From: an uncultured Oscillospiraceae bacterium
GTDB lineage: Bacteria > Bacillota > Clostridia > Oscillospirales > Oscillospiraceae
Assembly (NCBI GenBank): GCA_947624395.1
Contig: CANQKA010000007.1
Coordinates: 1 to 46,246, forward strand
Length of the DNA: 46,246 nucleotides
Direction of reading: 5' to 3'
The position numbers and the translations under genes were made by a program. Positions 4,372-41,787 of this stretch are shown one piece after another; position 1 is the stretch's first letter; every line of letters starts with the position of its first letter. The notes below the pieces were generated by a model. It was given only the letters and a program-made list of their open reading frames with translations. It was not told the origin of the DNA and made no database searches.

Positions 4372-4733
4372 TGGTGGAGCTGAGGGGGATCGAACCCCTG
4401 TCCGAAAGCGTTTCAACGGAACCTTCTCCGGGCGCAGACGGTTATTTTGCGCTTACGCGCCGTTCCCCTTCCCGGTGCAAGCCGTCACGCATGACGGGTC
4501 AGGTAGCTTCATGATGCATGGTGCGCTCAAAGCTTTGCGCACGCACGGACGCTGCTGATCGACGCCCAGGTCCCGGGCCGCAGCGCTCCCGGGCTGGACG
4601 GGCCTGCCTTAAGCGGCGGCCAGAACGGAGTTATCGTTCTCAGTTAATTTGAAAGGTTCCCAGTTTTTAGGATGTCCGGGTCATCCGCCCGCTTATTCCG
4701 CCCCCACACCCCCGTCGAAACCATTGCAGCCCC
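4372..4733 (-). ncRNA. ssrA: tmRNA (transfer-messenger RNA)
   Basis: 5' GGGGCTGCAATGGTTTCGACGGGGG and 3' GGACAGGGGTTCGATCCCCCTCAGCTCCACCA; acceptor stem GGGGCUG/CAGCUCC; tag reading frame GAG AAC GAT AAC TCC GTT CTG GCC GCC GCT TAA (minus strand 4641-4609) = (A)ENDNSVLAAA*. Confidence 0.97.
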
Positions 4734-25143: not shown

Positions 25144-26259
25144 TCATAGAGCGCGCTCCGCGGCATGGAGCGCCGCGGCGACCACCTGGTCCATGTCGTA
25201 ATACTTATATTGTCCCAGCCGTCCGCCGAACAGCACCTTTTCCTCCCCATCCGCCAAGGCTTTGTACCTGGCATACAGGGCGTTGTTGGCCTGGTCGTTC
25301 ACCGGATAATAGGGCTCGTCACCGGGCCTCCACTCGGCGCTGTACTCCCGGCTGATGACCGTTTTGGGCAGGTCCCGGCCCGCCTCGTCCTTCCCGAACT
25401 GGAACCACTTGTGCTCGATGATACGGGTCCAGGGCGTGTCGCTGTCCGTGTAATTCACGGCCGCATTTCCCTGGAAATTGGGCGTGTCCAGCACCTCGGT
25501 CTCAAAGCGCACGGACCGGTAAGAAAGCGCCCCCAGCCGGTAGCCGAAATAGGCGTCGATGGGCCCGGTGTACACCACCCGGTCTGCCAGCGCGTCCAGC
25601 TCCGCCTTATGGGCCAGATAGTCCGTATCCAACCGTACCTCCACCCCGTCCAGCATGCGCTCCACCATGGCCGTATAGCCGCCGATGGGCACGCCCTGCC
25701 AGCGGGCGTCGAAATAGTTGTTGTCGAATGTCAGCCGCACAGGCAGCCGCTTGATGATGAACGCCGGCAGCTCGCGGCAGGACCGGCCCCACTGCTTTTC
25801 CGTGTAGCCCTTGACCAGCTTCTCGTAGATATCCCGCCCCACCAGAGCGATGGCCTGTTCCTCCAGGTTTTTTGGCTCCGTGATACCCGCCTCCCGGCGC
25901 TGCCTGTCGATCTCGGCGGCGGCCTCGGCGGGCGTAGTCACGCCCCACATGCGGTTGAACGTGTACATGTTGAAAGGCAGGGAATAGAGCTCGCCTTTAT
26001 AATTCGCCACGGGGGAATTGGTGAAGCGGTTGAACGCGGCGAACCGGTTCAGATAGGTCCAGACCTGCTCATCGTTGGTGTGAAAAATATGCGCGCCGTA
26101 CACGTGTACATCCACGCCCTCTATCCGCCGGGTGTAGACGTTGCCGGCCACGTGGGACCGCCTGTCCACCACCAGCGCACGTCCGCCCCTGTCGGCCACC
26201 TGGCGGGCGAAGACCGCGCCATATAACCCGGCGCCGGCGATCAGATAATCGTATTTCAC
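25144..26259 (-). CDS. glf: UDP-galactopyranose mutase
   Basis: 'YDYLIAGAGLYGAVFARQVADRGGRALVVDRRSHVAGNVYT', 'GAHIFHTNDEQVWTYLNRF', 'KQWGRSCRELPAFIIKRLPVRLTFDNNYF'. Confidence 0.96.
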   Translation of the reverse strand: MKYDYLIAGAGLYGAVFARQVADRGGRALVVDRRSHVAGNVYTRRIEGVDVHVYGAHIFHTNDEQVWTYLNRFAAFNRFTNSPVANYKGELYSLPFNMYTFNRMWGVTTPAEAAAEIDRQRREAGITEPKNLEEQAIALVGRDIYEKLVKGYTEKQWGRSCRELPAFIIKRLPVRLTFDNNYFDARWQGVPIGGYTAMVERMLDGVEVRLDTDYLAHKAELDALADRVVYTGPIDAYFGYRLGALSYRSVRFETEVLDTPNFQGNAAVNYTDSDTPWTRIIEHKWFQFGKDEAGRDLPKTVISREYSAEWRPGDEPYYPVNDQANNALYARYKALADGEEKVLFGGRLGQYKYYDMDQVVAAALHAAERAL

Positions 26260-26273
26260 ATCCGCGCTCCCAT

Positions 26274-26915
26274 CTACTTCGCCTCTGTCTGCACGTCGCT
26301 GCGGGCCAGGACCTTCCAGACGGTCATCCAGAATATCTTCCAGTCCAGCGCAAAGCCGATATTTTCCAGATATTCCCTGTCCAACGCTGCCTTTTCCGGG
26401 CCGGACAACCTGTCCCGGCCGTTGACCTGGGCCCAGCCGGTGAGCCCTGGCCGCAGGCGGTAAACGCCGCTGGCCTCGCGCAGCGCGTGGATCTCCCGCT
26501 CCTGGGGTATCAGCGGCCGAGGCCCGATCAGGGACATTTTTCCCGTCAGCACTAGATAGAGCTGGGGAAGCTCATCCAAACTGGTGCTGCGCAGGAACCG
26601 GCCAAAGCCCGTGGTATGCGCACGGCTGTCCGGCATGTCCGCCGATGCCACGTATTGGGACGTATCGGCCCCCATGGTGCGGAACTTGATGAGCTGGAAA
26701 GGCCGTCCGCCCTGGCCGATACGCTGGTGCCGGAACAGCACGGGCTCGTGGGGGGACGTGAGCTTCAGCCCCAGGGCGATGGCCCCCATGGGCAGGGCCA
26801 GCAGCACTGCCAGCAGCGCGGCCAGCACCCGGTCCAGCGCGTATTTCACGGCCAGATACCGCTCCTGTCCGGCGGACAGCGCGTACGTCTTTTCCTCCCC
26901 GCAGGCCATCATCAC
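26274..26915 (-). CDS. Undecaprenyl-phosphate sugar-1-phosphate transferase (bacterial sugar transferase family)
   Basis: 'KLTSPHEPVLFRHQRIGQGGRPFQLIKFRTM...STSLDELPQLYLVLTGKMSLIGPRPLIP...RPGLTGWAQVNGRD'. Confidence 0.95.
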   Translation of the reverse strand: MMMACGEEKTYALSAGQERYLAVKYALDRVLAALLAVLLALPMGAIALGLKLTSPHEPVLFRHQRIGQGGRPFQLIKFRTMGADTSQYVASADMPDSRAHTTGFGRFLRSTSLDELPQLYLVLTGKMSLIGPRPLIPQEREIHALREASGVYRLRPGLTGWAQVNGRDRLSGPEKAALDREYLENIGFALDWKIFWMTVWKVLARSDVQTEAK

Positions 26916-28528
26916 GTGCCGACCGTCTCGCCCTCCGCGGTCAGTTTTTGGCCGGAGAACACCTGGGCCATCATGTCCTTGGCGGTCTGGACCGTTGTCT
27001 CGTCGGGGATGGTCATATAGACCTGCGTGCCAAGGGTGGGGGATACCTCATGGGTCCCCTCGCCGCCCACGCTGTAGCTGACGATGTTCCAGTCGCCGCC
27101 CTCGTCCAGCTGCCGGCGGATCAGGGACGCGATCAGATCGTAGGGTATCGTCATCTCAAAGCTGCCCTCCACCGCCGTCATCAGCGAGGAATACCGGGCC
27201 AGCAGCTCCGGGCTCATGACCTTATGGATGATGCCCCGGATCATCTCAAGCTGGTTTCTGCCCCGCTGGGCGTCGCCGTCCTCAAACACGAACCGCTCCC
27301 GCACGAAGGCCAGGGCGGTGGCGCCGTCCATCTCGTTGGGGCCCTCCTCGAAGTGATAGCCCCGCACGTTCCTGGAGTCAAAGGTCATGGGGGAATTGAC
27401 CGTCACGCCGCCCAGGGCGTCGATGATGTTCACGAACCCCTCAAAGTTTATCCGGAAATAGTAGTCCACGTCCACGTCGTACAGCTCGCCGATAGCGGCC
27501 ATACACTCCTGCTCGCCGAACCAGCCGGCGTGGGTCAGCTTGTCCGCGTAGCCCACGCTGGGGAAGTTCACCTTGTAATCCCTGGGGGTGGAGACGAGAA
27601 GCGCCTGACGGGTATCGGTGTTCACCGTCACCAGGATGTTCACGTCGCTGAGGCTGCTGGGAACAAGGCCGTAGCGGCTGTCGATGCCGGTAATGAGGAC
27701 CGTGTACACGTGCTCCGTCATGGGAGCCTGCTGTTCCTCGACCTCTTCCTTCTCCTCCTCCGGTGCCTCCGTGGGCTTGGCCAGCTGCACGCGCATCTTT
27801 GTCACTTCCCGCATCTGGTCGATGAGCTCGGTATAGTCCTCCATCTCCCGCAGGCCGTCCAGATAGGCCGTATCCGCGATAACCGCGTTGACGCTGCCGT
27901 CGAACAGCGCGTTCACAAGCTGCGTGGGCGTGGCAAAGCCGGTGGTCTGCAGGCTGGTCCCCAGTTGGCTGCCCAGCTCTGCCACGGCCTTGTCCACGGC
28001 CTCCCGGCCCATGCTCTCCATGACGCCGATGGTATAGTCCGCCACCTGGTCCATGGACTGGGCCGGGTCGTCCTGGCGCACATACACGCCCACGTGGGAG
28101 GCGGTGTATGTAGCGCTGTTGCTGGTGATGTTCTGCAGGGTCTGGGTCCCCTGGAAGCCATAATAGCACCCGGCGGCCATCACGGCCGTCAGCACCACGG
28201 ACAGAATGATACCGCCCCATGGCCGGTGTTTTTTCCCGAATGCCAGCATCAGCAAAGCCGTCAGCGCGAACAGCGCCCCCAACAGCACGCAGATGGCAAT
28301 CAGGAACTTTGTGCTTATCATCTTTGTCCGGACGATCATCACCACAAGGGCCACCGTCGCCGCCAGCAGCAGCGCCAGCAGGAACCAGCGGACGAACAGA
28401 TCCAGCGCCGGTCTTTTCCGCTCCGGCTCCGGCTGGACCCGAACGGTCTGCGTCTGCTCCGGGGCCGGCGCGCTCTTCCTCTCCGGCTCCGCCTTGCTCA
28501 AATGTCTTCCGGTCGTCTGATCGCTCAT
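26912..28528 (-). CDS. LytR-CpsA-Psr (LCP) family cell-wall glycopolymer ligase
   Basis: 'VLITGIDSRYGLVPSSLSDVNILVTVNTDTRQALLVSTPRDYKVNFP...ALGGVTVNSPMTFD...ALAFVRERFVFEDGDAQRGRNQLEMI'; 4 N-terminal TM segments. Confidence 0.94.
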   Translation of the reverse strand: MSDQTTGRHLSKAEPERKSAPAPEQTQTVRVQPEPERKRPALDLFVRWFLLALLLAATVALVVMIVRTKMISTKFLIAICVLLGALFALTALLMLAFGKKHRPWGGIILSVVLTAVMAAGCYYGFQGTQTLQNITSNSATYTASHVGVYVRQDDPAQSMDQVADYTIGVMESMGREAVDKAVAELGSQLGTSLQTTGFATPTQLVNALFDGSVNAVIADTAYLDGLREMEDYTELIDQMREVTKMRVQLAKPTEAPEEEKEEVEEQQAPMTEHVYTVLITGIDSRYGLVPSSLSDVNILVTVNTDTRQALLVSTPRDYKVNFPSVGYADKLTHAGWFGEQECMAAIGELYDVDVDYYFRINFEGFVNIIDALGGVTVNSPMTFDSRNVRGYHFEEGPNEMDGATALAFVRERFVFEDGDAQRGRNQLEMIRGIIHKVMSPELLARYSSLMTAVEGSFEMTIPYDLIASLIRRQLDEGGDWNIVSYSVGGEGTHEVSPTLGTQVYMTIPDETTVQTAKDMMAQVFSGQKLTAEGETVGT

Positions 28529-32670: not shown

Positions 32671-32789
32671 GGGGTGCTCCTCCTTGTAATTTTGACAGGA
32701 CCAGTATAGCACAATGTGATCGATAACGCCAGACAATGGCCGTCAACATGCAATTCAGGTCGTGATTTTGTCGATTCAGGACAGAAATA

Positions 32790-32867
32790 TTGACTTTTGG
32801 CTGGTCGATTTGCTATGTTGCTTCCAGAATTGGTGGTATTTTACCCTTTTGACTTAGCGCAAGGAGG
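32790..32867 (+). promoter_or_regulatory. Putative promoter and RBS for the giant repeat protein gene
   Basis: TTGACT (32790-32795), 18-bp spacer, TATGTT (32814-32819); AAGGAGG at 32861-32867. Confidence 0.5.
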
Positions 32868-32875
32868 CAACTGGA

Positions 32876-35800
32876 ATGAAGATGGCAAAGCGGATCATAG
32901 CGGTGCTTCTGGCGGTTATTCTCGCCTTTGGCACGCTGGCGACGACGGCGTTCGCGGCGGAGGAGCCGGAGACCGCGGTCGAACCCGAGGTCACGGTCGA
33001 ACCCGAGCCAACGGCGGAGCCGGAGGCTGAACCGGCCGCTGACAGCGGCGCGACCGTGGCATACTACGACCCCCTCACCAGGTCGCAGCAGCAGGCCAGC
33101 AGCGTCACTCTTGTGACCAACAGCGTCACGGAGTGGACCACCGGCTGGTACGCGGTGGAAGGCGCGGTGAACATGGGCACCATCTCCGTCAACGGTGAGG
33201 TGAACCTGATCCTGACCAACGGCGCGGCTCTGACATGCGGCGGCGTTTCTCTGCTGCACAAAGCGAGCCTGACCATCTGGGGCCAGAACGCCGACTATGC
33301 GCACGATGGCTCTCTGACGGCACATAGCTACCAGGGCTCGGGCATCGGTGCCAACTGGAACTACACCACGTCGATAACCATCAACGGCGGCGTGATCAAC
33401 GCCACCGGCGACACAACCAACGCTGGCATCGGCGGACGTATCTCCACTGACACGATAACCATCAACGGCGGCGTGGTGACGGCCAACGGCGGCAGCAGCG
33501 CCGCGGGTATCGGCGCCGGCTTGGGCCATTCCACGGTGACCATAACCGGCGGCAAGGTGACGGCCAAAGGCGGCTGGGGCGGCGCTGGTATCGGCGGCGG
33601 CAATGGCGGCGAGAGCACCGGCGGTTCCTCCACCACGGTGACCATAACCGGCGGCGCTGTGACGGCCACCGGCGGCTGGGGTGCCGCTGGCATCGGCGCC
33701 GGCGTCCCCGGAGAGGAAGAAGGCCCCACCAGCGCCACGGTGACCATAACTAGCGGCGCCGTGACGGCCAAAGGCGGTTACAACGCCGCGGACATCGGCA
33801 CCGCCTTTAAAAGAGGGTATCCCAATACCTCTGCCACGGTGACCATCACCGGCGGTTCGGTGAAGGGCGGCTTCAACCCCCAGCCCACGAACGGGAACGG
33901 CGCTCGCGTCTATCTGCTGCAGGTCAAAAACCCCAACGGCGCGGCCGTCACCATAAACGGCAGCGCCTGGAACGTCAACAACCACGCGGCCGCGGACAGC
34001 GACACGGATCTTTACGCCTATCTGCCCGAGACGGTCGCCACGGCGGACGTGTTGGTGGGCAGCGGGCCCATCGAGCGGTTCCGGCTGAACAAGTCGGCAG
34101 GCCGGTACGAGAGCGCGGGCACCGTGGAGATCGACCCGGACGCCGGCGCGGCGGAGTACTACGACCCCGGCGCGGGCACGAAAAAGCAGGCGGAGAACGT
34201 CATCCCCGTGAAGGAGGGCATGACGGAATGGGAAAATGGCTGGTACATCGTCAACGGCACGGTGACCCTCGGCCATATCTCCGTGTATAGCAACGTTGAC
34301 CTGATCCTGTCCAGGGACGCAGACCTGACGGTCAACGGCAGCCTGCAGCTGCTGAACGGCGCGCACCTGACCATCTGGGGCAGCGAGGAGGACTATCACA
34401 ACGACGGCGCGCTGACGGTCACCGGCAGCGCGAATACCGCCGGCATCGGCGGCGGCAGCCAGAACGACGGCGTCGCGGTGACCATCAACGGCGGCCGGGT
34501 GACGGCCCAGGGCGGCAGTCACAGTTCGGGCATCGGCGGCGGAGATGAAAGCACCAACGTAACGGTGACCATCAACGGCGGCCGGGTGACGGCCCAGGGC
34601 GGCAGTCACAGTTCGGGCATCGGCGGCGGAGATGAAAGCACCAACGTAACGGTGACCATCAACGGCGGCGTGATCAACGCCACCGGCAGCTACAACGGCG
34701 CGGGCATCGGCGGCGGATCTATGAACACCGGCGTCGTGGTGTATGTCACCGGCGGCGCCATAACGGCCTACGGCGGCAACAATGGCGGCGCGGGCATCGG
34801 CGGCACCGAAGGCGGCGCACGCTTTATAACGGTGACCATCAACGGCGGCACTATCACGGCCACAGGCGGCAACGCCGGCGCGGGCATCGGCTCCGGCGAG
34901 GGCTCCTGCACGGCCACGGTGAACATCAGCGGCGGCACGATCAACGCCACCGGCGGCACCACCTCCCCCGCCAGCGGCGCGGGCCTGGGCGCTGCGGGCG
35001 TCCGCTACTTTGATGTCTATTCCGGGGAGACCTCCGTCGCCACGGTGACCATCGACGGCGGCGTGATCAACGCCACCGGCGGTACCGGCGCGGCGGGCCT
35101 CGGCGCCGGAACTTCTGAATGTTCCTTTGCCACGGTGACCGTCAACGGCGGCACAATCACGGCCAACGGCAGCGACGGCGCCGTGGGCGTCAGCGGCGGA
35201 ACTGCCAACGACCCCCGCGTCGCGGTGACCGTCAACGGCGGTTCGCTGAAGGCCGTGGGCGGCGTCACGCCCCAGCCCAAGAACAAGGACGGGGCCTCGG
35301 TCTATTTGCTGCAGCTCGCCAACCCCAACGGCGAGACCGTCGCCGTGGACGGCACGCCCTGGCCCATCAACAACCACGCGGCCGCGGGCGACGGTGACAC
35401 GGACCTATATATGTATGTACCCGATACGAAAACGGAGGTGGACGTGACCGTCGGGGCCGCCCAGGCCGTACGGTACGCATTGGACAAAGAGACGAATCGG
35501 TTTGAATACGCGGGCTCTATCTACTATGACCCGACCGCCGGAACGACCCGCAGCGCGAAGGCGACGCCGGTGACGGCGGACATGACCGCCTGGACCGGGG
35601 ACAACGGCACGGACGGCTGGTACGTGGCCAACAGCACGCTGGACATGGGCCAGCTCACCGTCAGCGGCCAGGTAAACCTGATCCTGATGAACGGGACGGC
35701 CCTGACGGTCGGCGGCGGCATGCAGATCGATGACGGCGCCAGTCTGACCGTCTGGGGCCGGAACAAAAACTGCGCGGAGGACAGCGCGCTGGCGATCCAG

Positions 35801-38800
35801 GGCGGCGTCACCGGCAGCGGCGCGCTGGCCGTCAACGGCGGCGTCGTAACGATCGGCGCGGCTGTCGCCGTACCCACTGTGACCATCCACGGCGGCATTG
35901 TGACGGCCCGGGGCGGCATCGCCGCGGGCAGCGATGGCACGGTGACCATCACCGGCGGCTCGGTGAAGGGCGGCATCACGCCCCAACCGGTGAACGCCGA
36001 GGGTCAGCCGCTGTACCTGCTGCAGCTGGCCAACCCCAACGGCGAAGGGGTCACCATAGACAACGTGACCTGGAACGTCAACAACCACGCGGCGACAGGC
36101 GAGGGCGACACGGACCTCTATGCGTATATCGCCCTGTCGGAGGTAGTGGCGAAGGTCGGAGGCGGAACGCCCGTCCGGTACATACTGAACAAGGATACGG
36201 GCCTGTACGAGACGGCCTCGGCCGTGAACTACTATGACCCGGCGAGCGGGCAGGTCCAGACACGCGACTCAGCGGAGCCGCTCGTGAATAGCACGACCTG
36301 GTGGGTCGCGAGCAACGGTGCGGACGGCTGGTATATAGCGCTCGGCACCGTGACCACGGGGCAGGTCCAAGTCATCGGCGATGTGAACCTGATCCTGGCC
36401 AACGGCGCGAACCTGACGTGCAGCCGCGGCATCCATGTCCAGGAGGGCTCGCACCTGACCATCTGGGGCCAGAACGCGGACTACGCAAAGGACGGCGCTC
36501 TGACGGTCCGGAACGCGCCCAATGATTACCCGGGCATCGGCGGCACGTCCAGCTGGATGACCATCAACGGCGGCGTGGTCGATGCCGTCGGCGGCGCAGG
36601 CGGCGCGGGCATCGGCACCGGGTCTGGGACCAGCGCCACGGTGGAGATCAACGGCGGCGTGGTGACGGCCCAGGGCGGCGGTAACGAGAATGGCGCCGGC
36701 ATCGGCGGCGGACGGGATTCCACCTCCACGGTGACCATCAACGGCGGCACCGTGACGGCCACCGGCAGCAGCGGCGCCGCGGATATCGGCGCCGGGAATG
36801 GCGGCAGCGCCATAGTGACCATCACCGGCGGCTCGGTGAAGGCCGGGAGTGGGAGCGTTTACCCCCAGCCTGTGGACGCCAACGGGGACCCGGCCTATCT
36901 GGTGACCGTCCCCAACCCCAACGGTCTGGCCGTGACCGTGGGCAGCAAGACCTGGCAGCCCCGGAACCACATAGTTTTGGACAATGACACGAACCTGTAC
37001 GCTTACGCATCCAAGGCGCTTGCGGAAGAAAGCGGCACACTCTGGGTCACGACCAGCGAGTCGGAAACGCTGTATGTCTTCCGAAGCGACGGACTGAAGC
37101 AGGTGACCGACTTTGATGAGCGCAATGCGTCCTGGTCCTGGTCCGACGATGGGTCCGCCACCCTGACCCTGCCCATGCGGGACGGCGGCGATCCTGTGAC
37201 CCTGAAGGGCACGGTGACCGTCACCGCCGAGACGCCGGCCACGTGCACGGAGGGCGGCGAGAGGACCTATACCGCCTCCGCGACGATAAACGGCACGACG
37301 CTCTCCACCAGCCGGACCGTCAAGCTTGACCCCCTGGGTCACGCCTGGACCGGCGCGGCCGCGCTGATGGACGACCACACCCATGCGACCGTGACCTTCA
37401 CCTGCCAGCGGGATAGTTCCCACAAGGAGACGGTGACAGTGTCTGTCGCGTCGGCGGTAACAAAGAAACCCACCTGCACCGAACCGGGCGTCCGGACCTA
37501 TACGGCGGACGCCACGGAGAAGGCCAAGGAGCTCGGCTGCGAGACCGGGATATTCACCGTCACGGAGGCCGTTCCCGCCCTGGGCCACGATTGGGACGCC
37601 GAGGGCGACGAGATCGGCCTGATGCCCGGCGTGGACGGGAACTTCACCACCCTGACCGTGACCTGCAAGAACGACCACAGCCACACCCAGACCGTCTACA
37701 CCAAGGCGGAGAAAATAAGCTCCACGCCCGCCACCTGTACCTCCGAGGGCAGCGAGACGTACCGCATGCGCTACGAGTTCGAGGGCCAGAGCTACGTCCT
37801 GGCCGACACCGAGACCTACACGCTGCCCAAGCTGCCCCATACCTGGGGCGAGTGGACGCAGGTCGGCACGACCCTGGAGCGCGAGTGCACCGTCTGCCAC
37901 GAGAAGGACCATTCGGACCACGCGCATACCTTCATCCTACCCAATGAGGCCACATGGAACATCGTGAACGACAAGGTGGTGAGCGTGTCGGTGCCTGTGA
38001 AGTGCTCGGCGTGCGATCTGAGCGCCACGCTGACCTATTCCGGCGACCAGATCAAGTCCAACACCGTCACAAAAGCCACCTGCACCACGGACGGCTGGAC
38101 GGCTTGGTCCGTGACCGTGGAGCTGGACGGGAAAACCCGGACCTACACGCAGCAGACCGTTGACCCGGCCAAGGGCCACGTTTGGCACGTGGCCGACAGC
38201 GATGTGGTCTGGGCGGAGGACTACAGCGCGGCGACGTTCACTTTCCGGTGCATTTCCTGCGACGAGACAGCCGTGTCCCGCGTTGCCAGCACTGTTCTGG
38301 ACAGCACCCCCGCCACATGCGAGCAGACGGGCTATACCATCTACAGCGCGGCCACGGAATACGGCGACACCACGGTGTCGTCCAGCGTGAGCGCGGAGAT
38401 ACCGGCCCTGGGCCACGATTGGGACGCGGAGGGCGATGAATACCCCCTGCAGGCGGGCATTGACGGCGATTTCGTCACTTTGACCATCACCTGCAAGAAC
38501 GATACTGCCCACACCCGGAAGGTGTACGCCGAGCTGGGCCTGGTGAAGAACGAGCCGGCCACCTGCACGGAAAGCGGCGTCACCGGCTACAAGATGGAGT
38601 ACGAACTGGGCGGGCAGACCTACGCCATCGGCGAGGAAGAGGACTACGAGATACCGGCTCTTGGCCACCGGTATACCACGGCCCACGTGTGCGCGCTGTG
38701 CGGTGCGCAGGAACCGATATCGCCCAGCGTGACCTACACCTGGGACCTCCCGACAGCGGACGACACGAGCCGGGTACAGTGGACCCAGCCGGCCACCGGC

Positions 38801-40030
38801 GCCGCGCCCTATGTGACGGTGACAGCCGTCCGCACGGGCAGCGACGGCAGCCGCTTTGAGCAGCCGGTGACGGTGATAGCCACTGCCACGGCCAGCACGG
38901 TGGCGTGCGACAAGGCGGGCACCACGTCGTACGAGGCCAAAGTGGAGATAGGCGGCCAGAGCGCCACATACACCAAGGACTACGCGGACGTTGCTCCCGC
39001 GGGCCATCAGTGGAGCGAGCCAGTCGTTGCCTGGTCGGATGACCTGACCAGTGCCACCCTCACGGTGACCTGCGCCAGGGACGAGGCACACACGCAGACC
39101 CTGACAGCCCAAGTCACCAAGACAGGCACCGCGGCGACCTGCGAGAGCGGCGGCCAGCTCCTTTACACGGCCACGGCCCAGCTGGACGGCGCCACGTTGA
39201 AGGCGGAAAAGACGCAGAGCGTTGACCCCCTGGGCCACGCCTGGGCCCTCACGGAAGATGACGCTGACCCGCCCAAGCTGGAACGGGTGGACGGCGTGCT
39301 CACGGCCACGCTGACCTGCCGCAACGACCCGACCCACACCATGACCGTGCCCGCCCAGGAGACCTTTGTGACCCACGTCCAGGCGGCCACCGGCGTGGCG
39401 GACGGCGGCGATCTCTACCGCATATCCGTGACCGTGGACGGCAAGACATACGTGCTGGCCGAGGAACTGCGCACCATCCCCGCGACAGCGCCCACGGTGA
39501 CGGTGGCAAACACGGCCGACGGCATCAAGCTGACCTGGACCAAGATCGCCGAAGCTGACACCTACCGCGTCTACTACCGCGAGCACGGCGGCGCTTGGCA
39601 TGCAATCGGCCACACGGCGAACCTGGCCTACACCTGGAAGCACGGCAAGGATGGCACGAAGTACGAGTTCACGGTCCGTGGCTGCGCGGTCAGCGGCAAG
39701 ACAAAGACCTTGCTCCCCGGCAAGTACAACACCAGCGCGACGATCCAGTTCGTGAAAGCCCCCACCGTAACGGTCAAGGCCCAGCAAGGAGGCATAAAGA
39801 TAAGCTGGACGCAGGTCGCCGGGGCTGACACCTACCGTGTCTATTACAAGACCGCCGGCGGCAGTTGGCACGCCATCGGCCACAACGCCAACCTGTCCTA
39901 CACCTGGAAGCACGGCGTAGCCGGCCGGACCTACCAGTTCACCGTCCGCCCCTGTACCGTCACCGGCACGACCAAAACCCTCCTCGGCAGCGGCTACAAC
40001 ACCAGCAAGAGCGTAAAATTCATTGAGTGA
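32876..40030 (+). CDS. Giant secreted, hierarchically repetitive surface protein (GG-rich beta-solenoid-like repeats, Cys-containing repeats, two C-terminal fibronectin type III-like domains)
   Basis: 2384 aa; signal peptide 'MKMAKRIIAVLLAVILAFGTLATTAFAAEE'; four super-repeats each starting 'YYDP..G' with 'GWY...G.V.V...VNLIL.NGA.LT...LTIWGQN.DY..DGALT', internal 'VTINGG.VTA.GG...AGIGGG' repeats; C-terminal FN3-like repeats. Confidence 0.93.
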   Translation: MKMAKRIIAVLLAVILAFGTLATTAFAAEEPETAVEPEVTVEPEPTAEPEAEPAADSGATVAYYDPLTRSQQQASSVTLVTNSVTEWTTGWYAVEGAVNMGTISVNGEVNLILTNGAALTCGGVSLLHKASLTIWGQNADYAHDGSLTAHSYQGSGIGANWNYTTSITINGGVINATGDTTNAGIGGRISTDTITINGGVVTANGGSSAAGIGAGLGHSTVTITGGKVTAKGGWGGAGIGGGNGGESTGGSSTTVTITGGAVTATGGWGAAGIGAGVPGEEEGPTSATVTITSGAVTAKGGYNAADIGTAFKRGYPNTSATVTITGGSVKGGFNPQPTNGNGARVYLLQVKNPNGAAVTINGSAWNVNNHAAADSDTDLYAYLPETVATADVLVGSGPIERFRLNKSAGRYESAGTVEIDPDAGAAEYYDPGAGTKKQAENVIPVKEGMTEWENGWYIVNGTVTLGHISVYSNVDLILSRDADLTVNGSLQLLNGAHLTIWGSEEDYHNDGALTVTGSANTAGIGGGSQNDGVAVTINGGRVTAQGGSHSSGIGGGDESTNVTVTINGGRVTAQGGSHSSGIGGGDESTNVTVTINGGVINATGSYNGAGIGGGSMNTGVVVYVTGGAITAYGGNNGGAGIGGTEGGARFITVTINGGTITATGGNAGAGIGSGEGSCTATVNISGGTINATGGTTSPASGAGLGAAGVRYFDVYSGETSVATVTIDGGVINATGGTGAAGLGAGTSECSFATVTVNGGTITANGSDGAVGVSGGTANDPRVAVTVNGGSLKAVGGVTPQPKNKDGASVYLLQLANPNGETVAVDGTPWPINNHAAAGDGDTDLYMYVPDTKTEVDVTVGAAQAVRYALDKETNRFEYAGSIYYDPTAGTTRSAKATPVTADMTAWTGDNGTDGWYVANSTLDMGQLTVSGQVNLILMNGTALTVGGGMQIDDGASLTVWGRNKNCAEDSALAIQGGVTGSGALAVNGGVVTIGAAVAVPTVTIHGGIVTARGGIAAGSDGTVTITGGSVKGGITPQPVNAEGQPLYLLQLANPNGEGVTIDNVTWNVNNHAATGEGDTDLYAYIALSEVVAKVGGGTPVRYILNKDTGLYETASAVNYYDPASGQVQTRDSAEPLVNSTTWWVASNGADGWYIALGTVTTGQVQVIGDVNLILANGANLTCSRGIHVQEGSHLTIWGQNADYAKDGALTVRNAPNDYPGIGGTSSWMTINGGVVDAVGGAGGAGIGTGSGTSATVEINGGVVTAQGGGNENGAGIGGGRDSTSTVTINGGTVTATGSSGAADIGAGNGGSAIVTITGGSVKAGSGSVYPQPVDANGDPAYLVTVPNPNGLAVTVGSKTWQPRNHIVLDNDTNLYAYASKALAEESGTLWVTTSESETLYVFRSDGLKQVTDFDERNASWSWSDDGSATLTLPMRDGGDPVTLKGTVTVTAETPATCTEGGERTYTASATINGTTLSTSRTVKLDPLGHAWTGAAALMDDHTHATVTFTCQRDSSHKETVTVSVASAVTKKPTCTEPGVRTYTADATEKAKELGCETGIFTVTEAVPALGHDWDAEGDEIGLMPGVDGNFTTLTVTCKNDHSHTQTVYTKAEKISSTPATCTSEGSETYRMRYEFEGQSYVLADTETYTLPKLPHTWGEWTQVGTTLERECTVCHEKDHSDHAHTFILPNEATWNIVNDKVVSVSVPVKCSACDLSATLTYSGDQIKSNTVTKATCTTDGWTAWSVTVELDGKTRTYTQQTVDPAKGHVWHVADSDVVWAEDYSAATFTFRCISCDETAVSRVASTVLDSTPATCEQTGYTIYSAATEYGDTTVSSSVSAEIPALGHDWDAEGDEYPLQAGIDGDFVTLTITCKNDTAHTRKVYAELGLVKNEPATCTESGVTGYKMEYELGGQTYAIGEEEDYEIPALGHRYTTAHVCALCGAQEPISPSVTYTWDLPTADDTSRVQWTQPATGAAPYVTVTAVRTGSDGSRFEQPVTVIATATASTVACDKAGTTSYEAKVEIGGQSATYTKDYADVAPAGHQWSEPVVAWSDDLTSATLTVTCARDEAHTQTLTAQVTKTGTAATCESGGQLLYTATAQLDGATLKAEKTQSVDPLGHAWALTEDDADPPKLERVDGVLTATLTCRNDPTHTMTVPAQETFVTHVQAATGVADGGDLYRISVTVDGKTYVLAEELRTIPATAPTVTVANTADGIKLTWTKIAEADTYRVYYREHGGAWHAIGHTANLAYTWKHGKDGTKYEFTVRGCAVSGKTKTLLPGKYNTSATIQFVKAPTVTVKAQQGGIKISWTQVAGADTYRVYYKTAGGSWHAIGHNANLSYTWKHGVAGRTYQFTVRPCTVTGTTKTLLGSGYNTSKSVKFIE
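34478..34651 (+). repeat. Perfect 2 x 87-bp tandem duplication within the giant repeat gene
   Basis: The unit encoding VTINGGRVTAQGGSHSSGIGGGDESTNVT occurs at 34478-34564 and 34565-34651 with identical nucleotides. Confidence 0.97.
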
Positions 40031-40047
40031 ACCACAAATACCATAGC

Positions 40048-40095
40048 AGACAGCGGATGGCGCGAAAACACGCCATCCGCTGTCTTTCGTATTTT
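40048..40095. terminator. Terminator downstream of the giant repeat gene, convergent with the histidine kinase gene
   Basis: AGACAGCGGATGGCG-cgaaaaca-CGCCATCCGCTGTCT then TTCGTATTTT. Confidence 0.88.
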
Positions 40096-40109: not shown

Positions 40110-41111
40110 TCACTCCACTTCCAGCTTATCCGCGTGCAGGTCCAGGTAAAACACACTGCCCTTCCCCGGTTCCGATTTGGCCCAGAGCTGGTGGCCCAGC
40201 TTTTCCGCCGACCGGCGGCACAGATAGAGCCCCAGCCCGGTGGCGGACTTGTCCGTGCGGCCATTATAGCCCGTGAAACCCTTTTCAAAAATCCGCGGCA
40301 GGTCAGATCTGGCGATGCCGATGCCCGTGTCCGCCACGGACAGCACCAGCTCCGGACTGACGGCGATGGTCACACCCCCGGCGGGGGTGTACTTGACCGC
40401 GTTGTCCAAAAGCTGCTCCAGGATGAACGACAGCCACTTCTCGTCCGTCAACACCTGGGCCTGCGTGCCATCATAGCGCAGATAGAGCTTTTTCCGCACG
40501 AACTGGGGCGCATATTTGCGCACCGCCTGACGAATGAGGCCGTCCAGCGCCACGGACCGGATGACCAGGTCCCCGGCGCCCTCGTCCAACCGCAGATAGG
40601 TCAGCGCCATTTGCGCGTATTGCCGGATACGAAACAGCTCTGCCTCCATGGCCCGGTGCTCCGGGGTATCCTCCCCCTGCAGCATCATTTGCAGCACGGC
40701 GATAGGCGTCTTGATCTGGTGCACCCACGCGGCGTACCAGTCCAGGTGCTCCTGCCTTGTCCGGGCCGTATCGGTGGCAAGTGCCCCGTAAGCAGCCTTC
40801 ATCCTCTCGGCCATGGCCCGGAAATCCGCCTCTGCCGGGGTATCCGCCTCGGGCAGCGGATCCGTCAGGACCAGAATATTTTCCAGCGCGGCAAGCCGTT
40901 TTTCATGCTCCCGCCGGAACCGGACATATCCCGCCGCGAGCAGACCCAGCCCCGCCAGGGCGCACAGCCCCGCCGCGTAAAAAACCGCCTCCGTTGGCGC
41001 TCTGTACAGGGCAAACACCAGCGCGAAGATAACCGTGAACAGCGCCAGTACACCCGCGCCCCGCCGGTGGGACCAGATATAGGTCCAAAACAGGTGCCTC
41101 TCCCGACCCAT
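40110..41111 (-). CDS. Sensor histidine kinase, BceS-like (short intramembrane-sensing type)
   Basis: Two N-terminal TM helices with a very short linker; 'WVHQIKTPIAVLQMMLQ' H-box; 'LLDNAVKYTPAGG' N-box; 'GIGIARSDLPRIFEKGFTG'; start Met 41111. Confidence 0.92.
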   Translation of the reverse strand: MGRERHLFWTYIWSHRRGAGVLALFTVIFALVFALYRAPTEAVFYAAGLCALAGLGLLAAGYVRFRREHEKRLAALENILVLTDPLPEADTPAEADFRAMAERMKAAYGALATDTARTRQEHLDWYAAWVHQIKTPIAVLQMMLQGEDTPEHRAMEAELFRIRQYAQMALTYLRLDEGAGDLVIRSVALDGLIRQAVRKYAPQFVRKKLYLRYDGTQAQVLTDEKWLSFILEQLLDNAVKYTPAGGVTIAVSPELVLSVADTGIGIARSDLPRIFEKGFTGYNGRTDKSATGLGLYLCRRSAEKLGHQLWAKSEPGKGSVFYLDLHADKLEVE

Positions 41112-41115
41112 ACAC

Positions 41116-41787
41116 TCACCCCACGATGTAGCCGGAGCCCACCCGCGTGGCGATGAAGTCCCGCAGACCGGCATCCTCCAGCTTGCGCCGCAGGCGGGTC
41201 ACGTTCACGGTCAGGGTGTTTTCCTCCACGTAGGCGTCCATTTGCCACAGTCGGGTCATGAGCGTGTCCCGGCTGACCACCTTGCCCTTGTTTTCCAGCA
41301 GGGTCTGCAAAATGCGAAACTCGTTTTTTGTCAGCTCCACCCGCTTGCCATCGTAGCTCAGGCTGGCGTCGTTCAGGTTCAGCACCGCGCCGTTATGCTC
41401 CAGCACCGGTATCTTCCCGCCCATGTCGTAGGCCCTGCGCAGCACCGCCTGAAGCTTGGCCGTCATCACCTGCAGGTCCACGGGCTTGGGCAGAAAATCG
41501 TCCCCGCCCATGGTCATGGCCATGACGATGTTCATGTTGTCCGACGCAGAGGATATGAACACCACCGGCACGCTGGACACCCGCCGTATCTCACTGCACC
41601 AGTGATAGCCGTTGAAAAATGGCAGCGCGATATCCAGCAGCACCAGGTGGGGGTCATAGTCCAGAAACTCCCCCAGCACGTTCCGGAAGTCCCGGACGCA
41701 CCGGACGGCGTGGCCCCAGGAGCCGATCTGCTTTTCCATGACCTCCGCCAGGGCCCGGTCATCCTCCACGATGAGAATTTTGTACAT
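41116..41787 (-). CDS. OmpR-family response regulator, BceR-like
   Basis: 'ILIVEDDRALAEVM', 'LVLLDIALPFFNGYHWCSEIRR', C-terminal wHTH 'ELTKNEFRILQTLLENKGKVVSRDTLMTRLW'. Confidence 0.94.
   Translation of the reverse strand: MYKILIVEDDRALAEVMEKQIGSWGHAVRCVRDFRNVLGEFLDYDPHLVLLDIALPFFNGYHWCSEIRRVSSVPVVFISSASDNMNIVMAMTMGGDDFLPKPVDLQVMTAKLQAVLRRAYDMGGKIPVLEHNGAVLNLNDASLSYDGKRVELTKNEFRILQTLLENKGKVVSRDTLMTRLWQMDAYVEENTLTVNVTRLRRKLEDAGLRDFIATRVGSGYIVG

Follow-up and report, generated by a model that had tools for sequence, protein, structure and literature searches.

What does a 2384-residue secreted protein built from nested repeats do for its cell, and what holds it there? The gene that raises this question lies in a 46,246-nucleotide contig (CANQKA010000007.1; here called the window, meaning the whole stretch of DNA analysed) of a metagenome-assembled genome (MAG; GCA_947624395.1, G000) of 2.06 Mb, 131 contigs and 82.7% completeness, which most likely comes from an uncultured Oscillospiraceae bacterium of the gut. 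At somewhat better than even confidence, we read the product as a mosaic, surface-displayed, adhesin-like modular protein of this uncultured bacterium. Its signal peptide would lead to export through the Sec pathway, and its N-terminal solenoid head would meet the outside world, be it a glycan, the host, a neighbour or a phage. The head would be diversified by rung changes and by exchange between paralogous loci, while each of the beads that follow would be fixed by a single zinc ion bound to a Cys-His-Cys-Cys/His set, giving a stiff stalk. A C-terminal pair of FN3 domains would keep the protein non-covalently on the cell surface, in place of the sortase-type tail of its relatives, and a LytTR-type regulator acting at a direct repeat would switch transcription on.

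Gene structure and overall architecture

The gene and its boundaries are as follows.

32876..40030, + strand: gene of 2384 aa, stop included (open reading frame and translation)
32876..32956, + strand: Sec-type signal peptide MKMAKRIIAVLLAVILAFGTLATTAFA, residues 1-27, ending AFA (translation, paralogue conservation)
40048..40085, + strand: terminator-like hairpin of 15 pairs with a T-rich tail

The reading frame opens with ATG and is preceded by an AAGGAGG-type ribosome site. The signal peptide, called by reading the sequence rather than by a predictor, is conserved among the solenoid paralogues. Pfam finds two families in the protein, Beta_helix_3 (E 3.4e-33) and fn3 (E 4.4e-08), and has no match to residues 1440-2200; a search of NCBIfam returned nothing useful and a PDB sequence search gave weak FN3 matches only. 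Translation and Pfam matches alike support the preliminary description of the product as a secreted protein of nested repeats. Upstream in the window (25144-28528) lie genes for a UDP-galactopyranose mutase, a sugar transferase and a LytR-CpsA-Psr protein.

The predicted solenoid head

The N-terminal part consists of four super-repeats, in which rung numbers are pattern counts with the closing rung included.

33062..34156, + strand: super-repeat 1, an N-cap, 6 rungs and a closing cap (AlphaFold2 model)
34157..35521, + strand: super-repeat 2, 9 rungs, including an exact 87-bp duplication
35522..36229, + strand: super-repeat 3, 3 rungs
36230..37165, + strand: super-repeat 4, 4 rungs; 3' edge approximate

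Three of the four YYDP starts proposed earlier (34157, 35522 and 36230) are exact and the other is one base off, at 33062 rather than 33063. The closing motif proposed with them is found unchanged in super-repeats 1 and 3, and as variants in super-repeats 2 (GGSLKAVGGVTPQP) and 4 (GGSVKAGSGSVYPQP). At the DNA level a 90-nt unit is present 16 times in the gene, and the tandem duplication within super-repeat 2 occupies 34476-34649.

Beta_helix_3 (PF18889) matches 11 stretches with 113.4 bits, against a curated cut-off of 27. An AlphaFold2 model of super-repeat 1, built with seven related rows added to the input, contains strands only (pLDDT 87.2, pTM 0.87), and we read it as a beta-solenoid because the strand spacing of the model tracks the rungs. 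Each super-repeat is thus predicted to form an all-beta solenoid of three to nine rungs with fixed caps, probably the fold that the preliminary description had suggested and had offered to give up if modelling produced no solenoid. In a Foldseek search against the PDB this model matched nothing at E≤0.001, and phage tailspikes and pectate lyases were the nearest of its weak neighbours. Compared with other Beta_helix_3 repeat proteins, which the rungs resemble in scoring well above the curated cut-off, the present ones differ in being grouped into capped super-repeats running from YYDP to DTDLY, each of three to nine rungs, and in having Cys/His beads and then an FN3 pair behind them.

Paralogues and probable exchange of heads

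Paralogues with other repeat numbers were found in the same genome (C11, C17, C8 and C58, of which C8 and C58, both cut by contig ends, may be the halves of one gene), and related proteins, again with other repeat numbers, occur in the assemblies G009 and G012. The LTIWG motif gives five super-repeats for C17 and four for the window protein. The proposed homologues with different repeat counts therefore exist in other assemblies, and this recurrence rules out that the architecture as a whole is an assembly artefact; the exact 87-bp duplication and single mosaic joins could still be artefacts.

The same locus is present in a sister species (G012), with its upstream flank on contig C27 and its downstream flank on C18, and both flanks are 93-94% identical to those in the window. 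Against this locus, only ~200 nt of super-repeats 1 and 2 align, at 77-80%, while the G012 gene has a head most similar to those of the G000 paralogues C8 and C58 (up to 98%). Super-repeats 3-4 in the window, for their part, share 96-97% identity with G012 C16. Because the flanks are so alike and yet the G012 head matches a different paralogue better, the sequences as assembled point to exchange of the head between loci. Some of this mosaicism could be mis-assembly, since the assembly comprises 131 contigs and two halves of paralogues stop at contig ends within repeats. If the exchange is real, the locus is an example from gut bacteria of paralogues exchanging their heads, and it is linked to a promoter element common to double-glycine peptide genes.

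Several copies of the family are frame-broken (L029:5380-6040, belonging to the C11 paralogue, and L086, L087 and L088), one break lying next to seven consecutive G (L029:5996) and another next to six (L087:8591). These copies may be pseudogenes, products of on/off switching or assembly errors.

Two other accounts of the head were considered, both of which we regard as improbable. The head could be an enzyme, a right-handed beta-helix polysaccharide lyase or hydrolase, rather than a binding head: its weak fold neighbours include tailspikes and pectate lyases, and the window genes at 25144-28528 encode the three proteins named above. Its near-identical GGxVTAxGG rungs, however, offer no unique polar site, no catalytic Pfam family was matched in the 2384-aa protein, and the fold matches all fail the E 0.001 threshold. 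Equally improbable is that the protein serves mainly as a phage receptor or decoy, with diversity of the head driven by phage and not by ligand; a head that diverges or is exchanged while its flanks remain 93-94% identical would suit this account, but immune or ligand selection fits the same pattern. We retain the binding head.

The Cys/His beads

The region that follows the head has no Pfam match and was delimited by unit models.

37193..39475, + strand: Cys/His bead region (HMM units, alignment, AlphaFold2)
37232-37435, 37463-37696, 37724-37930, 38069-38284, + strand: bead units 1-4 (HMM)
38306-38524, 38552-38713, 38900-39103, 39128-39349, + strand: bead units 5-8 (HMM)
39383..39475, + strand: degenerate ninth unit, with ATG replacing ATC and all four ligand positions absent

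The HMM recovers the eight ATC units described earlier as well as the one without Cys; what was called "paired Cys" is better read, from the unit alignments, as a four-position Cys/His set. By iterated HMM search, the order within a unit is the ATC cysteine, a GHxW histidine and a knuckle of either CxxC or Cx5H, the CxxC knuckles occupying the place of the C.ND.SHT motif of other units. Read by eye, the units recur as blocks in the order (u1u2u3)(u4u5u6)(u7u8). Within the 2384-aa protein C5, G9, H37, T53 and C58 are invariant in the unit alignment.

Among 72 distinct units from genomes of the genus, 65 have C, H, C and a final C or H; four are Cys-less and lack all four positions. Of the other three, one has a variant knuckle (CLNDCGEEH), one is frame-broken and one belongs to a disrupted gene. 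In other genera of the order the full set is present in 24 of 27 units (14 CxxC, 10 Cx5H), and one unit, in G291, lacks the first Cys, the His and the knuckle together. The four positions are kept or lost together across these units, which are related and do not represent independent events, so that no probability is put on the counts. Beads occur in at least 44 of the 295 genomes of the order. AlphaFold2 models the region as all-beta with flexible joints (pLDDT 78.8, pTM 0.44), and Foldseek found no PDB match to this model at E≤0.001. Zinc knuckles and ribbons with CxxC share with the bead a CxxC/Cx5H turn between strands and two further Cys/His positions; the bead differs in the order of ATC-Cys, GHxW-His and knuckle across ~70 residues, and in having neither a Pfam model nor a fold match. 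The four-position beads form a recognisable family.

The C-terminal FN3 pair and possible surface retention

The protein closes with two FN3 domains.

39485..39757, + strand: penultimate FN3 domain (Pfam fn3, HMM, tree)
39758..40027, + strand: terminal FN3 domain, ending at the stop codon (Pfam fn3, HMM, tree)

FN3 (PF00041) matches these two stretches with 33.7 bits (cut-off 25). The expectation that the protein bears no LPXTG tail and no SLH domain (PF00395) is borne out, the chain ending in ...GYNTSKSVKFIE and Pfam finding no SLH domain; the genome itself encodes one sortase and several SLH proteins. For retention, left unexplained by the preliminary description, the terminal FN3 pair is now a candidate on positional grounds.

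An FN3 pair closes 20 secreted proteins of the genome at the stop codon, the window protein included, a count that may miss proteins as it comes from a survey of selected genome stretches. Their N-terminal parts are of five kinds, namely the solenoid family (4), other beta-helix-like proteins (2), BspA-type LRR (11), transglutaminase (2) and one unassigned, and Pfam found no other anchor domain in any of the 20. FN3 domains are internal to the chain in seven other proteins of the genome, a placing expected of ordinary spacers. In a tree of 88 FN3 domains, whose resolution is limited by few columns, copies group by position, terminal or penultimate, with 10 changes of the terminal label compared to 19.7 after shuffling, and a supported clade (99/88) unites six terminal domains that come from proteins of two kinds. 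Across the genus, the pair is found in 11 of 35 genomes at E≤1e-15 and in none of the other 24, and six species (G007, G009, G012, G018, G323 and G000) have an expanded set of 37-77 matches.

Relatives carry a different ending. A G015 protein with the same head and beads (P0002) ends in PDTGDE-TM-RRRRAK and a paralogue in the same genome, C81, which shares the super-repeat head, in PPTGD-TM-ARK; further proteins of this genome have PxTGD-type tails, and some bead proteins of distant genera have PQTGE- or PDTSD-type ends. The FN3 pair of the window protein takes the place of this PxTGD-TM-basic tail and stands where an anchor stands, because relatives with the same head or beads have their sortase-type tails there. 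From this position, the pair may hold the protein at the cell surface. To our knowledge cell-wall binding is not an established property of FN3 domains, and the literature searches gave nothing relevant to a surface-anchoring role of FN3. As the terminal cassette of 20 secreted proteins, at the site of the relatives' sortase tail, the pair is a concrete and testable anchor candidate. The distribution of Gram_pos_anchor over the relatives (no match above cut-off in FN3-rich genomes, matches in several FN3-free ones) was dropped as evidence, the numbers being small and confounded by kinship. A second giant beta-helix-like protein of the genome (P0003, L035:4490-8899, - strand) combines a few CxxC units and a Pro/Thr-rich linker with the same FN3 pair.

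Both the stalk and the anchor admit a competing explanation, to each of which we give roughly one chance in four. The Cys units may be beads stapled by disulfides instead of metal sites, given that the protein is exported and that the ATC and knuckle cysteines of each unit could pair. Disulfides, however, would require neither the invariant GHxW histidine nor a fourth position that is Cys in CxxC and His in Cx5H units, and the CxxC units have an odd number of cysteines (three). A zinc site is the likelier of the two, as a swap between Cys and His at the fourth position, with the other three fixed, suits a metal site better than a disulfide. The FN3 pair, in turn, may be a mere spacer in a protein that is released to act on soluble polysaccharide or within the extracellular matrix: FN3 is a common spacer in secreted enzymes, the pair has no known binding partner, and in this genome internal runs of three to eight FN3 domains precede amidase, peptidase C39 and choline-binding parts. 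A spacer with nothing behind it would nevertheless be odd, and the pair sits exactly at the stop in 20 proteins that have no other Pfam anchor, at the place of a sortase-type tail in relatives of the same family. Surface retention by the pair is the reading we carry forward.

Relation to known surface proteins

Fibrillar adhesin-like proteins (PMC8286594) resemble the window protein in being long, repetitive and secreted and in combining a variable N-terminal part with a stalk-type Pfam domain. Beta_helix_3, which the protein carries, is among the listed stalk domains and is reported never to occur together with a known adhesive domain (PMC8286594). The window protein differs in having no known adhesive domain (none among its Pfam hits at E≤1) and no known anchor, and it falls outside the published definition because the adhesive domain is missing. 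It is best filed as working like a fibrillar adhesin-like protein, not as a member of that group. A bolder reading, which we hold only tentatively and at clearly less than even odds, is that the protein combines two undescribed building blocks, a zinc-pinned extracellular bead family absent from Pfam and a tandem-FN3 cassette acting as a general non-covalent surface anchor, the latter multiplied into tens of copies in certain species of the genus and lacking in most others.

Promoter element and possible regulation

Two features precede the gene.

32749..32783, + strand: direct-repeat promoter element TGCAATTCAGGTCG-N-TTCAGGACA, with ATTCAGGNC repeated at 21 bp (exact pattern match)
32790..32819, + strand: promoter-like -35/-10, TTGACT-18-TATGTT, directly after the element (consensus scan)

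The element lies upstream of the window gene and of C8, C11 and C17 (with mismatches in C8 and C17), as well as before family genes in G009 and G012, and a TTGAC-type box follows it at nearly every site read. An exact pattern search found it in only 4 of 24 relatives, with zero matches for the backwards control. Its other sites precede secreted proteins and short genes for peptides with a double-glycine leader. LytTR sites consist of 9-bp repeats separated by a 12-bp spacer (PMC2766830), and the element has this arrangement, upstream of the -35. It shares with LytTR-controlled promoters of the ComE/BlpR/SilA/AgrA type (PMC2766830) the two repeats and spacer just before the -35 and the presence of double-glycine peptide genes in its set; unlike theirs, the set here includes giant solenoid proteins, and the link to a regulator is putative. 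Three LytTR genes are present in the genome, and by analogy a LytTR-type protein is the putative regulator acting at the direct repeat. The element is common to the solenoid paralogues, a 473-aa secreted protein and the double-glycine-leader peptides (window 32749-32783, and L157, L158, L162 and L164-L167), and the genes that bear it possibly form a LytTR-type, quorum-sensing-like set. Elsewhere in the window, a histidine kinase/response regulator pair lies downstream on the other strand (40110-41787), and a tmRNA gene (4372-4733, - strand) encodes the tag peptide ENDNSVLAAA.
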